Of a stretch of DNA of 64,000 nt, positions 2,770 to 23,872 are shown piece by piece (positions within the stretch are counted from its first letter, which is position 1; the number at the start of each line of letters is the position of its first letter). This stretch comes from a virus. The stretch covers positions 1-64,000 of the IMG/VR virus record IMGVR_UViG_3300042518_001429. One strand, written 5' to 3'. A program made the position numbers and the translations under genes. A model generated the notes under the pieces. That model worked only from the letters and a program-made list of their open reading frames with translations, did no database searches and was not told the origin of the DNA.

Positions 2770-3351
2770 ATGTCTGATTGTTTTTTTAACTACACTACTG
2801 CAACTGATCTTGTTACCTATTCTACAAATATAGGCGACGGGATTAATAATGTTTTTACTGTACCACACAATCTAGGTACTAAAGATGTTTCGGTTACAGT
2901 TAGAGATACACAGACCAATCTTTTAGCTTACCCGGCTATTGAAGTCATTACTTTAAGCTCGGTTAGTGTTTCGTTTAATTTTGTTCCTACTTTAACTGCT
3001 TATGACGTTACTATATTTGCAGCTGCTTCTGCAATTAGAGTCGAACCATTTACAGATCGGGTTGTTATTAACATTGATGAACAGCCAGCTCAGAACGTAA
3101 CTGTCAGTGTTAGCAGTGTTGGAGACAATGTAAATGTAAATGTTATAGACTTTTTATCTCAGTGGGGATCTATTATAGGCACGATATCTGCTCAAACTGA
3201 TCTCTGGGCTTATCTTTCTTCGGATAGCGATTTTCAAACTCTGTCTTATACTCCTTCTTCTATCCAAATTTCTATATCTAACGGCAACACAATTACTTTA
3301 GATAACTTAATAACTAAAACCCAGGCCCTTGCCTACTCAATTGCTCTATAA
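2770..3351 (+). CDS. Virion/tail protein with a fibre-type beta domain
   Basis: 193 residues. Residues ~20-100 hold a pattern common in phage fibre proteins: IGDGINNVFTVPHNLGTKDV, then VTVRD, and a closing ...PTLTAYDVTIFAA strand. The C-terminal half contains VSVSSVGDNVNVNVIDFLSQW and a Ser/Thr-rich end. A structural role is inferred from composition and neighbours; the specific part of the tail is not known. No box or Shine-Dalgarno sequence is clear in the 4-nt gap before it, so it may be translated from the upstream transcript. Confidence 0.65.
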   Translation: MSDCFFNYTTATDLVTYSTNIGDGINNVFTVPHNLGTKDVSVTVRDTQTNLLAYPAIEVITLSSVSVSFNFVPTLTAYDVTIFAAASAIRVEPFTDRVVINIDEQPAQNVTVSVSSVGDNVNVNVIDFLSQWGSIIGTISAQTDLWAYLSSDSDFQTLSYTPSSIQISISNGNTITLDNLITKTQALAYSIAL

Positions 3352-3354
3352 ATA
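3347..3354 (+). promoter_or_regulatory. Perfect TATAAATA late promoter box
   Basis: Exact T4 late consensus TATAAATA. It overlaps the stop codon of the upstream gene and ends 7 nt before the GTG start at 3362. Confidence 0.6.
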
Positions 3355-3361
3355 TTAAACA

Positions 3362-4381
3362 GTGAAGACTCTTGTAACAAATTATACATTTTCAGCCAGT
3401 GCAAAGCAAATTACACTTACAAACTACCCGTCTTTAAGGCTTGATCAGATTCTTCTTATAACCAACGTTACCGATAATGTTATAATTTATAATTTTGCTG
3501 ATCCTACAGCAGGTGGTACTCTTGCAGGAAATGTTCTTACTTTGTTGTATAACACTACCTCAATGTCAGATAGTGACCGGTTACAAATCTTTATTGATGA
3601 TTATACAGTACCTGCTACCGAAGCTTCTCTTACCGCAGTACAAGTTAAAATAGATAATACTAATGTTTTATTAAATGCTTTAACTGCTAAACAAGACACT
3701 TTTAACTTTGATATATCTTCGGTTAATGTAAATACAAATGAACTTGAAGGTTTAACAAGAACTGTTAATGCTAGTATTACAGCAACAAATAACAATTTAG
3801 TAACTTTTAATAGACAGCTTACAGGTCAAGTTTTAGCTTTTAATAATCAATTATCAGGTCAGGTACAAACTTTAAACACCCAGTTAACTGGGCAGCTCTT
3901 TACAATAAATCAAAATGTAAGTTCTACTAATCCCAGACTTTCTAGTATAGATACAAAGCTAACAACTCTTATAAATCAAACTGATGGCATAGAAGGCTCA
4001 GTAGATCAAATTGAAGGTTATATTAATGATGTTGAAAGTACTTTAACAAGTATTAGTAATAACACCATATATTTAAACTCTGCTGAATTCAGTCAAACTG
4101 TATCTCAATTAACAAGTAGTGTTTATATAGGGGAAGGAAGAATTTTTAGTATACAGGGTATTTCTTATGCTGGTTACGATCAGTACCTGCAAATTGAAGA
4201 TGCACCACAAGGCCCTGGAAGTCGTTTTACTCAATTAATAAAAGCAAATGAAAATTTTAATATTGAGTTTTCGAAAGGCTTTTACGGTGAAAATTTATAT
4301 GTTAGAAATAGTTTAACTCCAGTGACCCATACACCCGGTAATAATGATATAATGTTGACAGTGCATTGGCGAGGGATATAA
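3362..4381 (+). CDS. Trimeric-fibre-like protein with coiled-coil middle
   Basis: 339 residues starting with GTG. The first ~90 residues are beta-rich (KTLVTNYTFSASAKQITLTNYPS...). Residues ~95-250 form a long helical stretch with short repeats such as NRQLTGQVLAFNNQLSGQV and NTQLTGQLF, typical of a trimeric coiled coil. The last ~90 residues look globular (IFSIQGISYAGYDQYLQIED... LTVHWRGI). It probably acts as a tail or collar fibre. The name is inferred from shape only. Confidence 0.65.
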   Translation: MKTLVTNYTFSASAKQITLTNYPSLRLDQILLITNVTDNVIIYNFADPTAGGTLAGNVLTLLYNTTSMSDSDRLQIFIDDYTVPATEASLTAVQVKIDNTNVLLNALTAKQDTFNFDISSVNVNTNELEGLTRTVNASITATNNNLVTFNRQLTGQVLAFNNQLSGQVQTLNTQLTGQLFTINQNVSSTNPRLSSIDTKLTTLINQTDGIEGSVDQIEGYINDVESTLTSISNNTIYLNSAEFSQTVSQLTSSVYIGEGRIFSIQGISYAGYDQYLQIEDAPQGPGSRFTQLIKANENFNIEFSKGFYGENLYVRNSLTPVTHTPGNNDIMLTVHWRGI

Positions 4382-5008: not shown

Positions 5009-6451
5009 ATGAACGACTCAAGATTATTTACAGACAGTGAATTAAGCCAACCTTTGCCTCCTATTTATAAGGGCAAGGATATAACTATTTGGCCTGGTCA
5101 GCTTGCCCAGTACCCTGCACATGGAAATAGAGGCATTAACGGGAGTTATATGTTAAAACAAGGCAGACCTAGAAGATCAGCTTTACGAAGATATGTTTTT
5201 AGATATGAAGGGGGCAAATTTGTTTATTTGGCTACAAGAAAAGGTCAAAGAAATGGAGGCTTTACTAGTAAAAATGCTGGCACTAATTTAAAAATACAAT
5301 TTAACGTTACTAATCAAGGAGAGTTGTTTAATTCTAATTTTACTTTTCGAGGCAAGAATACAGCTGGTGAAGACGTATGGTCTACTGGGCCTTTAAATCA
5401 GTTTCGTTATGACAGTGCAAATAGTAGATGGGTTTGGGAAACAGCTCCTGCCCCTGCAGCTGGTGCCCCTATGCCTGCTCTTAGCGCTAATGGTTTTTCC
5501 TCTTCAACAACAAACACTCTACCTAATGCAGGAACTATAAACGAGGTGTCTTGGACTTATATTTCTAATCCCTATACTACTCAAACACCTCAATTACCAG
5601 CTACCCTTGTTGCTACACCTATACAGTGGTATAACAACAATGACATAGAAAATCTTAACAAATGGCCTATTAAAAATAAAGATATGAACTATGGAGTTAG
5701 AAAGCATATGTTCTATCATAGATGGCAAGAACTAGACTATGATTATATAGAAGGCGTAAGATTTGATGGCTGGGATTATGGAAACGGTTTGTATATTAGA
5801 CAAGATAGAAATTCTAATTATTTTTATAGAGTAACAAGCATTGGCCCCAATATAGGCATGACTCTTTCTCAAGATGATTATCTTTACTGGGACAATACTC
5901 AGTGGTGTTTATATAATCAAACGGAAGTAGGAGGAGATTGTATTACTAATAATAATACACCTCAGATGTCAATGCATAATAATGATGGTGGACAACTATG
6001 GACTGATAATGGCTATGGTCTAGGTACAGCTTCAAAGCACTATGCCGTTAAACCTGAAGGTAGACCAGATTGTCTTACAGATGATTATCTTAATAAATGC
6101 TTTGCAGGAGTTAACCTTAAACACTATGATACAGTCTTTGTTGAAGTTATGTGGAAATTTGTTTCTAATAAAAATTATAAAAGAGGGGTAAATTATTTTG
6201 ATTCTGGTCTTTGGAATGTAGACTCCTATAAAGGTATGCTAAATTTTGGTATACCTCTTGACCAAATAAGTGATATGGATTGGTGGACACCTAGACCTTT
6301 TAGAACAAAAAGTAATAAAGGGAGAGTTTATAGAATAGGTATACTAGAAGAAGATACTGGTGTTGGCGGGTATGATAAAGTACTTTGGTGTCAAAGAACT
6401 AAAACAATTACTACTAAATATGATAGAGGAGGACATACAGCATTAGAATAA
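5009..6451 (+). CDS. Large aromatic-rich virion protein; possible 5' exon of a ribozyme-split gene
   Basis: 480 residues with many Trp, Tyr, Asn and Gly. A basic segment (MLKQGRPRRSALRRYVFRYEGG) comes early, and a later part is dense in aromatic residues (YYRWQELDYDY-like, WDYGNGLYIRQDRNSNYF). The reading frame ends with GGHTALE and a stop only ~20 nt before a group I ribozyme core. One reading is that this is a complete gene. The other is that it is the first exon of a longer protein continued at about 6742-9435, with the stop contributed by intron sequence. I cannot place the splice sites, so both remain open. Function is probably fibre or decoration. Confidence 0.65.
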   Translation: MNDSRLFTDSELSQPLPPIYKGKDITIWPGQLAQYPAHGNRGINGSYMLKQGRPRRSALRRYVFRYEGGKFVYLATRKGQRNGGFTSKNAGTNLKIQFNVTNQGELFNSNFTFRGKNTAGEDVWSTGPLNQFRYDSANSRWVWETAPAPAAGAPMPALSANGFSSSTTNTLPNAGTINEVSWTYISNPYTTQTPQLPATLVATPIQWYNNNDIENLNKWPIKNKDMNYGVRKHMFYHRWQELDYDYIEGVRFDGWDYGNGLYIRQDRNSNYFYRVTSIGPNIGMTLSQDDYLYWDNTQWCLYNQTEVGGDCITNNNTPQMSMHNNDGGQLWTDNGYGLGTASKHYAVKPEGRPDCLTDDYLNKCFAGVNLKHYDTVFVEVMWKFVSNKNYKRGVNYFDSGLWNVDSYKGMLNFGIPLDQISDMDWWTPRPFRTKSNKGRVYRIGILEEDTGVGGYDKVLWCQRTKTITTKYDRGGHTALE

Positions 6452-6470
6452 AATAATATAAACAAACAAA

Positions 6471-6710
6471 GGCCCTAATCGGATGAATTCGGGGAAACCT
6501 TCCTCTGCGTTGTAGAGATGGCAATCCCGAGCCAAGCCATAAACCATTTTATGGAAGGTGTAGAGACTACTGGAGACAAAAAGGTTTGTCTTAATAACCA
6601 GCAAGAGCGTCCGACAAATAAAAAATATTTGAAGATATAGTCCAACCTGTAGTGAAAACTATAGAACATGTTGCGACGCCAGTACTTTATATAACAAGCC
6701 ACGCGAGTGG
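6471..6710 (-). other. Placeholder for strand check: no feature on the minus strand here
   Basis: Nothing coding or RNA-like is supported on the minus strand of this stretch. The real element is the plus-strand ribozyme entry at the same position. Confidence 0.05.
6471..6710 (+). ncRNA. Group I intron (ribozyme) core without an endonuclease gene
   Basis: The paired elements of a group I ribozyme can be drawn in order. A candidate guide GGCCCT lies at 6471-6476. P3 is TCGGATG (6479-6485) with CGTCCGA (6608-6614). P4 is TCGGG (6489-6493) with CCCGA (6526-6530), preceded by the diagnostic GGCAAT and followed by GCCAAGCC. P6a is CCATAAA with TTTATGG. P7 is GACTA (6565-6569) with TAGTC (6638-6642, within GATATAGTCC). 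P8 is CAAATA (6615-6620) with TATTTG (6626-6631). P9 is CTGTAG (6647-6652) with CTATAG (6659-6664), and a GCGA-capped hairpin sits at 6699-6710. A CTGG/CCAG pair enclosing an AGACAAA/TTTGTCT stem between P7 and P3 fits P7.1/P7.2 of subgroup IA. Exact splice sites are not resolved. Confidence 0.85.
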
Positions 6711-6741
6711 GCAGGCTCGGTTCACAAGGGTCAAACAACAT

Positions 6742-9435
6742 ATGCCATACACAAGAGAATCAGGCTATCTACAGAACATGGTCGAAAATGGAATTACGTT
6801 TTCTGACCGTGATAGAGATGCTGTAGAAAAATTACGAGTATCTAATCCGCAAAGTCTTATCGATACAGACTTTGAGTATTCTTTGCAAAATACAAAATGG
6901 GAATTCTTAACTCTCTGTAATAACTATCCAGGGGTATATGCAAGAGCTAATGAACCAGCATTTACTTCAAATCAAATAACTTCTATACTACCCTCAGGCA
7001 TTGGTAATAGATCAGTAACTGTAACAGTAAATGAATTGCCTCGTTCTCCTTTCAAAATAGGGGATTCTGTAGTGTTAAAAGAAACAGCTAACACCACTTA
7101 CGTAGATGGGGCTTATATTATAACAGCAGTATTATCTCAATATTCTTTTCAAGTAGTTACTAAATCTCCTGCAGCATTAGTAGGTGATCAAAAAACGCAA
7201 TATACTGCACTCTACACTGGTGGCTTCTATACAAATGCCAATATACCTATTGTTGGTGTATCTTCAATTGCTGGAACGAGTGCAGCGTTAATTCAATTTG
7301 CAAACCCTCATAACCTTTATATAGGAACCCCTCTCACAGTGGTTGACTATAGACTATCAGCTGTTCCTTGGTCGGGTAGTTTTGAAGTATCTGCGGTAAG
7401 AGATGATTATAGAGTTATCTATCAGACTTTAACTGGTTCTAATTATTCAACATCAACTCTATTAGTGCCTGCAACAGGGGCAGTATATGCCAGAACCGAA
7501 GGTGTAGCGGTTCATAGATTCTTTGACGGTGGTGTACAAATTAATCCAGGTACCTCAGCTCCTAATGCTCGCATAATGCGTCAAACCAGAAAGTACTTTA
7601 AGTATCAGTCTGGTAAATCAATGCAATTTTCAACCGGTGTCTTGTTTAGACCGGTTTATGAAGTTACTAATGCTTATATTGACAAAACCCTTTATACTGC
7701 TAATTCTGCCACCTACCCTTACTACGACTTCGTTATATCAACAGAACAATATCATGGCTTTGCTGCTCCTGACTCCCATAAACAAGGGGTAACCATAAAA
7801 ACATTTGGCTTTGTATTATCTTCAAATGAAACTAATCCATATAATAAGACATTTGTTGTTAATAAAGTTTTAAATTCTAAAACCTTTAGTGTACAAATTC
7901 CGGTAAATGCTCAATTTAATCCTTTCCCAACAACAGACTTATCTCCCGGTGGTATTGCTTACGTGGAAGTACAAAATTGGAATGATGCCACAGTAAGAAC
8001 AGGTCTTTTTGATGATCAGAACGGAATGTTTTTTGAATATGATGGTAAACAATTTTATGCTGTAAAACGACAAACTACAACACCTCTAGCAGGAACAGTA
8101 AGAGTTGTAAATGGTTCTCCTTGGATTGTAAGTAGTGATGGATTTACTAAGTTTAAAACACAATTAGACGAAAATAATTTTATATCAATACAAGGAATGT
8201 CTTATCAGGTAGGATCAATTGTTAATAATTTATCAGCTACTGTAACCCCTGTTTATCGTGGTCAGAATGCTACAGGTTTAAAAGTTATAAAAACAGAAGA
8301 ATTGAGAATACCTCAATCTGAATTTAATCTTGATAAACTTGATGGCGCAGGGCCTTCTGGTTATGTACTCAATCTCAATAAAATGCAGATGATGTTTATT
8401 GATTACTCCTGGTACGGTGCCGGGAAGATCCGTTATGGTATCAGAGCTGTAAATGGTAAGATAATTTACTTTCACGAAATTTATAATAACAACGTAAATA
8501 TTAAGGCTCACATGCGTTCAGGTAACCTTCCCGGACGTTTTGAAATATCTAGTATTTCAAAGACCGGTACCTTCCTAACAGCTATAAGTTCAAACTCTAC
8601 ATCAGGTTTAATATCTCAAACCGACGCTAATATGCTACCACCTAAAGGCCGTATTGTTATAAATAACGAATACATAAACTATACAAAAGGTAGCACACAA
8701 TCAGGAGGAATAGTTCTAAACTTTAATCAAAGAAATGTCGGGGGTTTAACCTCAGGTGCTAAAAATCATAATGCTGGGGATCAATATGCTTCTTATAATC
8801 AAAACTGTTCACCTGCTTTAAGTCACTGGGGTGTAGCAGCGTTGATGGACGGAGAGTTTAACGAGGATAAGTCTTATCTTTTTACGGGGTCTAATCAAAC
8901 CTCCCTAACTGCAATGTCAGCAGATAAAGCTTTATTGTCTGTTCGTCTAGCACCTTCTGTTGACTATGGTATTATAGGTAAACTCGGTGAAAGAAGCTTA
9001 GTAAATCATTCCACCCTTAAACCACAAACTATAGGCATTGTCACTAACAATCCCTTACAAATTAATGTAAGAGTTAATTGCGAGCCACAAACTTTATTTA
9101 AGAATTTATCAGCCTGGAATTTTGTAGCCAATGGAAGTATAGCACAATACTATGACCATTCTGTTGATGGTTCGTTTGAAGTGGAGGGCACCGGTGGAGA
9201 TCTCATTGCTTCGTTCTTTGTATCTCCGGAGTCTCCTATTAATTCTAACTATCAAACATGCAAAGACTTTAACATTGAAGTTGTACGAGAGTTAACAAAC
9301 AGTATTCTCGGCGGGGATTTCCCTTTTCCGGATGGCCCCGACGTCGTAACAATTAGTGTCAAAACATTAGATGGCGGTTTAAACTATAATGCTGTATGTC
9401 GGGCTAGAATGTCTTGGACTGAAGATCAAGGCTAA
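6742..9435 (+). CDS. Very large virion fibre/structural protein
   Basis: 897 residues if the ATG at 6742 (MPYTRESGYL) is used; an AAGGG lies 11 nt before it. The frame is open further upstream into the ribozyme, so translation could also run through from an upstream exon after splicing. Near the N-terminus KLRVSNPQSLIDTDFEYSLQNTKWEFLT is a motif I associate with large phage structural proteins. Residues ~290-630 hold a domain also present in the minus-strand protein at 32216-34186: YQSGKS, GLFDDQNGMFFEYDG, DKLDGAGPSGYVLNL and a closing LPGRFEIS. The role is probably fibre or baseplate periphery. Confidence 0.7.
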   Translation: MPYTRESGYLQNMVENGITFSDRDRDAVEKLRVSNPQSLIDTDFEYSLQNTKWEFLTLCNNYPGVYARANEPAFTSNQITSILPSGIGNRSVTVTVNELPRSPFKIGDSVVLKETANTTYVDGAYIITAVLSQYSFQVVTKSPAALVGDQKTQYTALYTGGFYTNANIPIVGVSSIAGTSAALIQFANPHNLYIGTPLTVVDYRLSAVPWSGSFEVSAVRDDYRVIYQTLTGSNYSTSTLLVPATGAVYARTEGVAVHRFFDGGVQINPGTSAPNARIMRQTRKYFKYQSGKSMQFSTGVLFRPVYEVTNAYIDKTLYTANSATYPYYDFVISTEQYHGFAAPDSHKQGVTIKTFGFVLSSNETNPYNKTFVVNKVLNSKTFSVQIPVNAQFNPFPTTDLSPGGIAYVEVQNWNDATVRTGLFDDQNGMFFEYDGKQFYAVKRQTTTPLAGTVRVVNGSPWIVSSDGFTKFKTQLDENNFISIQGMSYQVGSIVNNLSATVTPVYRGQNATGLKVIKTEELRIPQSEFNLDKLDGAGPSGYVLNLNKMQMMFIDYSWYGAGKIRYGIRAVNGKIIYFHEIYNNNVNIKAHMRSGNLPGRFEISSISKTGTFLTAISSNSTSGLISQTDANMLPPKGRIVINNEYINYTKGSTQSGGIVLNFNQRNVGGLTSGAKNHNAGDQYASYNQNCSPALSHWGVAALMDGEFNEDKSYLFTGSNQTSLTAMSADKALLSVRLAPSVDYGIIGKLGERSLVNHSTLKPQTIGIVTNNPLQINVRVNCEPQTLFKNLSAWNFVANGSIAQYYDHSVDGSFEVEGTGGDLIASFFVSPESPINSNYQTCKDFNIEVVRELTNSILGGDFPFPDGPDVVTISVKTLDGGLNYNAVCRARMSWTEDQG

Positions 9436-23407: not shown

Positions 23408-23424
23408 AAATTTTAATTTGAAAG

Positions 23425-23872
23425 TGGAGGTGAGGGGAGTTGAACCCCTGTCCAAATAATTTGCTCTAAAAGGTCTACATGTTTTAGTATCTTTAGCATT
23501 TCAGCCACCATACGGTGACGAAGACTTTAGGCTGCTTGGCGATACTAACCGAGTTTTTAGTCTGCCTATAGACATTAGCGCACATCTACATACGGAGGAT
23601 TCTTTTTGTTACGTTGATACAGTCCACAATTCAACAACCTCTATAATCAAAGTATCCTTAGAGGATCTGGATACTAGGGTTTAGGCTGCCATTAAGCAGT
23701 AGTTTTCTTCAGGAGCGAAGAATTCTACTACATTAGACCAAGCGGACTTAACAGCTTCAACAGCAGAGGTAATAGCCTTTGCGTTTAGTTTTTAATCGAT
23801 TTTAACGAGGCCATCGATCAACCTCGACATGCACTTTTAGTCTCAACTATCTGTCGAAACCGGTACACCCCC
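23425..23872 (-). ncRNA. ssrA: Transfer-messenger RNA (tmRNA), one-piece
   Basis: tmRNA frees stalled ribosomes and adds a degradation tag. The 5' end GGGGGTGTACCGGTTTCGACAG (in short: GGGGGTG then GGTTTCGACA) is canonical. The 7-bp acceptor pairs GGGGGTG with CACCTCC (23426-23432), followed by A; CCA is not encoded. The T arm reads GGGGTTCAACTCCCC. Pseudoknot 1 can be drawn as CGAGG/CCTCG with ATCGAT/ATCGAT, followed by an A-rich stretch and CGCAAAG, as in E. coli. The tag frame runs from the resume codon GCA (23782-23780) to TAA (23683-23681). It encodes 33 residues, starts AKAITSAVEAV and ends FFAPEENYCLMAA, similar to the ...ENYALAA end of E. coli but much longer. Confidence 0.95.

Follow-up and report, generated by a model that had tools for sequence, protein, structure and literature searches.

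A probable natural circularly permuted group I ribozyme between two genes of a T4-like phage

Introduction

In the laboratory, circular RNA can be made with back-splicing group I introns. In an engineered Tetrahymena ribozyme, the parts follow each other in the order guide, core, 3' splice site, segment, and 5' splice site; this construct is artificial and comprises P10 and an added antisense region (PMC10415121). For bacteria, circularly permuted group II introns that are active in vitro have been published (PMC8637638). They have group II chemistry and domains, are often plasmid-borne, stand alone without an ORF, carry extra helices foreign to their parent class, and possess reversed splice sites with a small circularized segment in between. 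For group I, the back-spliced intron ND5-717 of mushroom coral mitochondria was called the first natural permuted case (PMC6545197). It is a giant intron that harbors other mitochondrial genes in P8, owes its permutation to the circular genome, and has a circular exon-containing intermediate, the circle consisting of 2.1 kb of coding exons. No permuted group I case from a phage was found in the literature searched, whose scope did not extend to most subscription journals and bioRxiv.

The element considered here lies in a T4-like virus record (T4-type portal protein at 108-2012; Portal_T4, E 8e-100). Coordinates throughout refer to the window, i.e. the whole stretch of 64,000 nt that was analyzed. 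Like ND5-717, it appears to be a natural group I ribozyme with permuted intron-exon order, but it measures only ~0.28 kb and its predicted circle is tiny and apparently non-coding. With the bacterial group II introns it shares the reversed order of splice sites, the small segment between them, the stand-alone, ORF-less state, and a helix foreign to the parent class, whereas chemistry, domains, and host differ. The order of its parts is that of the engineered Tetrahymena ribozyme, with a natural helix, termed P0, in place of the added regions. Conventional phage introns (L003, L005, L105, and L264) have a near-identical core sequence around P7; judged by eye, they differ in that P1, and usually P2, as well as the 5' splice site lie upstream of P3, and in that they sit inside tmRNA, tRNA, or protein genes.

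The catalytic core

The original prediction of a group I core was borne out by the covariance model: cmscan matched RF00028 at 6435-6664 on the plus strand with 77.7 bits (gathering score, 50; E 4.9e-18). Neither the window nor the rest of the 91,891-base virus record contains another group I match. GIR1, the lariat-capping ribozyme, has its own Rfam family, and no match to it was obtained at the curated cut-off, cmscan reporting only a tmRNA and Intron_gpI. The pairing of P3 (5' strand 6479-6485, partner 6608-6614), P7 (GACUA at 6565-6569, the guanosine site, with UAGUC at 6638-6642), and the P9 hairpin (strands 6647-6653 and 6658-6664) can be read directly from the sequence. In ten small-exon relatives, RNAalifold recovered P3, P4, P5, P6, P8, and P9, with 22 of 42 core pairs, among them pairs of P3, changed on both sides yet kept. 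The P7 strands are identical in 14/14 aligned elements; being invariant, P7 pairs but cannot covary.

The element was further described as an endonuclease-free ribozyme between two structural genes without a 5' splice site upstream of its guide GGCCCT, and both statements hold. Zero ORFs of >=100 aa are present within 6452-6741, and the upstream P1/P2 model positions in the cmscan alignment of the window consist almost entirely of non-standard pairs. A P1 containing the U.G pair is present, yet its 5' strand sits downstream of the core, unlike the standard RF00028 layout. The usual P10 is not seen in the elements.

A 5' splice site downstream of the core

The internal guide GGCCCU, the 3' strand of P1, forms the 5' end of the ribozyme at 6471-6476 (+), with G6472 as the splice-site G. 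Its complement, the putative 5' splice site AGGGU↓C (arrow, splice point), is located at 6727-6732 (+), behind the core and 10 nt ahead of the ATG of the downstream gene, here called gene B. The resulting pairs are C6732-G6471, U6731.G6472, G6730-C6473, G6729-C6474, G6728-C6475, and A6727-U6476. AGGGTC at 6727-6732 is the only plus-strand copy before 15,655. Guide and partner differ in concert among relatives: Flavobacterium phage immuto combines the guide GGUCCU with a downstream AGGAUC, L017 combines GGUCCA with UGGAUC, and UGCCC goes with GGGU↓A in L022 and L024, and CGCCC with GGGU↓G in L023.

Seven distinct loci with the core ahead of gene B (the window, L011, L012, L022, L023, L024, and L127; L015 is near-identical to L012) were chosen by synteny with gene B. 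When 240 nt downstream were scanned for P1 partners, the best one preceded the start codon of gene B by 2-12 nt in all seven. In each of these loci (7/7), the base following the splice U forms a pair with the guide (C-G four times, A-U twice, G-C once), which, by arithmetic on the recorded letters, is expected in 48 of 5,040 arrangements. Since the 3' end is misaligned by MAFFT owing to the variable length of the excised segment, P1 was counted by script on hand-set positions. Among 17 curated elements, the pair beside the splice U is standard in 16 (permuted mean 8.1; equalled by 1 of 20,000 permutations), the first exon pair is standard in 17/17 (reached by 1 of 20,000), and whole P1 rows have 82/85 pairs (reached by 0 of 200,000), figures that, like all permutation results given here, are optimistic because members were partly picked by eye for their downstream partner and are also inflated by related sequences in the sets. 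For P1 alone, the observed score was reached by 120 of 100,000 permutations downstream and by 49,498 of 100,000 upstream; the latter control region is thus at chance, and an upstream 5' splice site was rejected. In eight divergent elements, P1 alone gave 2,452 of 40,320, not significant by the usual bar. L118 has just four clear P1 pairs, and RNAalifold offered no P1 on alignment A5, whose splice-site columns are misaligned. Taken as a sequence comparison, with membership settled partly by eye, the strand of the putative 5' splice site after the core is found to pair and to covary with the guide.

The P0 helix and the predicted excised segment

P0 is formed by AUGUUG at 6668-6673 (+), whose last base, G6673, is probably the terminal guanosine preceding the 3' splice site, and CAACAU at 6736-6741 (+), which ends directly before the start codon. 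It joins the end of the ribozyme with sequence past the 5' splice site and would thereby set the two splice sites opposite each other; it resembles the arms that engineers add. A G ends or follows the 5' strand of P0 in the gene-B loci, the position of the terminal G being uncertain by 1-3 nt. The helix is made of different letters elsewhere: AAGUUG with CAACUU in L007, L009, and L155, AAAAGUC with GGCUUUU in L012, AAAUGA with UCAUUU in L017, and UAAAAAG with CUUUUUA in L115. RNAalifold proposed P0 unprompted in the seven gene-B loci, two of its six pairs being changed on both sides and kept.

Scored jointly downstream in 16 elements with their own guides, P1 and P0 gave a value that 0 of 200,000 permutations reached; in the upstream control, 18,962 of 200,000 did so. 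In eight divergent elements the joint figure is 120 of 40,320. In L009, L023, and L245, the upstream score exceeds the downstream one. P0 alone fails to locate the site (9,701 of 200,000 overall; 1,272 of 5,040 in the gene-B loci).

The two splice sites would delimit an excised segment at 6674-6731 (+), predicted as a circle of 58 nt with a GCGA-capped hairpin within a larger stem; the fold energy of this segment is no better than that of shuffles (z 0.26). Predicted lengths are 46-77 nt in the gene-B loci, ~18-26 nt in the small forms, and ~155 nt in L245. The segments of L007, L009, and L155 contain hairpins in which the CUGU loop is constant and the 5-bp stems vary (GUGGC with GCCGC, GAAGC with GCUUC, and GCUGC with GCGGC, respectively).

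Proposed mechanism

The element is best explained as a natural circularly permuted group I ribozyme, broken in the P1 loop, that excises a circle and separates the upstream from the downstream mRNA; on the sequence data, a probability of roughly 0.7 is assigned to this reading. With its front splice site behind the core, such a ribozyme would release a tiny RNA circle and separate messages rather than join pieces of a gene. From the core, the downstream P1, P0, and the intergenic position, which are read from the sequence, we infer two chemical steps, the circle, and a possible effect on gene B translation. In the first step, GTP bound at P7 would attack after U6731, giving a gene B message that starts with G and has a leader of 11 nt (3-13 nt across the seven loci). 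In the second, the new 3' OH of U6731 would attack after the terminal G near 6673, yielding the ~58-nt circle and an upstream message that keeps the ribozyme as its 3' end. Until the reaction, the sequence as far as the start codon of gene B would be covered by P1 and P0, which suggests that this cover may control gene B translation.

It is unlikely, in our estimate, that the element is a one-step processing ribozyme that only performs the GTP cleavage after U6731 and thus creates a new 5' end of the gene B mRNA without a circle. In favor of such a role, the 5' splice site precedes the start of gene B by 2-12 nt in 7/7 loci and a gene start by about 10 nt in L245 and L250, the excised segment varies strongly in sequence and length (mostly 18-77 nt, ~155 in L245), and the terminal G is not fixed to the nucleotide. 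It would leave unexplained that the P0 strand beside the presumed 3' splice site is retained across the family, that the hairpin directly past this site has changing yet paired stems in small-exon members, and that L001, L017, L007, L009, and L255 have no start codon near the 5' splice site.

The permuted ribozyme may be extended to a tentative and rather doubtful proposal, namely that the phage family uses back-splicing as an expression device between virion genes and that the permutation arose at least twice, in the P1 loop and in the P2 loop. A late polycistronic message would then be cut between two virion genes, the upstream message gaining a structured 3' end, the gene B start codon being freed from P1 and P0 as a nearly leaderless message, and a stable small circle being produced. 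A compact phage family, including the cultured phage immuto, would supply testable natural designs with, among others, a helix that holds the splice sites. It would also raise the question of why an endonuclease-free intron unable to repair a gene is kept between genes.

Distribution and limits

Phage contigs yielded 21 distinct elements with the reversed order and the break in the P1 loop (type A), one of them in the cultured Flavobacterium phage immuto (L001). They comprise the seven gene-B loci, L001 and L017, L007, L009, L155, and L249, L115 and L118, L255, L256, L258, and L262, and L245 and L250; the duplicates L014, L015, L102, L124, L125, L251, L257, L259, and L260 were removed, and the census leaves out the cores L160, L183, L210, and L229 and most others of the core survey. 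A break in the P2 loop (type B) is seen in two distinct elements, L108 and L112 (L122 is near-identical). Here, a P1 hairpin GGGUA...UGCCC follows the segment, succeeded by a strand that pairs with sequence just before P3; this split P2 has 26/27 pairs in L108 and 16/16 in L112. A long-stem search for more P2-loop forms yielded none beyond L108 and L112/L122; the longest runs, in L216 (19, with many G-U pairs) and L009 (17), were rejected for lack of a fitting P1.

A survey of 14 type A and two type B loci showed that the distance from the end of the preceding same-strand ORF to the element is 11-35 nt in 11/14 type A loci and 80-81 nt in L245 and L250; L115, another of the 14, has no such ORF on record. 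Directly behind the permuted element of immuto, a terminator-like hairpin is located. The immuto core (L001 4005-4139, corresponding to MW353175.1 145086-145220) is annotated as hypothetical protein immuto26A_226 (QQO91905.1), which is probably a spurious gene.

When 107 distinct cores were scored one by one, the curated elements did not stand out; detection of single permuted elements by complementarity is not specific and was abandoned. Given the null results of the single-core, P0-only, and divergent P1 tests, the case rests on later finds and on covariation within families that were selected through synteny or through their core sequence; the seven gene-B loci are the part free of hand-picking. 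L249, found later by core sequence alone, fits type A. A search based solely on P7.1/7.2 yielded eight new viral loci, seven of which (four distinct: L255, L256, L258, and L262) fit type A, while L261 does not. These seven have, judged partly by eye, the guide GGCCC, GGGU↓CAA, a P0 of 4-7 bp, and, directly past the 3' splice site, a hairpin whose pairs differ between members.

These data also bear on the quite unlikely view that a decayed intron is at hand, in which the core has persisted after loss of P1, with a downstream complement that is vestigial or due to chance. The missing endonuclease, the weak upstream P1, the short helices, and the non-significant single-element scans would be in line with decay; against it, P1 and P0 covary over divergent loci, and the core helices keep pairing despite two-sided changes, with P7 strands invariant.

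Flanking genes

The original proposal also included a virion gene of about 1,380 residues split by an intron. The upstream gene (5009-6451, +) encodes a 480-aa protein without PHROG or Pfam match and stops 19 nt ahead of the guide. Gene B (6742-9435, +) encodes a virion structural protein of 897 aa that matches phrog_5838 over positions 93-709. Its frame was described as open back into the core; this is true for the window, where it is open back to a stop at 6619, but the openness is not conserved among the gene-B loci, in four of which (L127, L022, L023, and L024) the stretch from the putative 3' splice site to the gene B start contains an in-frame stop. In 7/7 gene-B loci, the upstream protein is homologous to the 480-aa protein of the window and keeps the C-terminus [RK]GGxT[AV]LE with its stop just ahead of the core and guide, and gene B has its own conserved N-terminus. 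In homologues without the element, the two neighbors are not fused. The split gene was therefore rejected.

Comparison with relatives lacking the element disclosed a different fusion. Among the 80 loci L022-L101, only L022, L023, and L024 have the core ahead of gene B according to a motif search, with which cmscan on 12 of them agrees. A module of ~80 residues is joined to the N-terminus of gene B in 56 of 76 homologues; by the same measure, 17 further core-free homologues are unfused, some because the contig ends. In the window, this module constitutes the first ~80 residues of the gene at 3362-4381 (+), 3.1 kb upstream. On these comparisons the gene neighborhood is rearranged, with the module distant from gene B here and joined to it in relatives, but not in the way expected if this element had split a gene. 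That the module is joined to gene B by an ordinary intron whose 5' splice site lies far upstream, e.g. at the module end near 3605, as the fusion in relatives and the 3.1-kb distance here might suggest, is very improbable, as no GGGU lies near the module end in the window, L022, or L015, in-frame stops intervene between core and gene B start in 4/7 loci, the upstream test of P1 alone is at chance, and whole genes conserved in other loci would fall inside the intron.

Further observations

Between the module gene and gene B, two further conserved genes and the ribozyme are found. The sequence TATAAATA, which we take to resemble a T4 late promoter, occurs at 3349-3356 ahead of the gene at 3362 and also upstream of the cores L112, L115, and L118.

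The window harbors a tmRNA gene at 23422-23872 (-) that matches RF00023 with 137.4 bits, has a 102-base stretch where the model has 6, and is not reported by ARAGORN. By eye, the T arm of tmRNA is apparently interrupted by conventional introns with nearly the same core, the interrupting introns being L005, L006, L008, L010, L013, L016, L018-L021, L130-L132, and L264.
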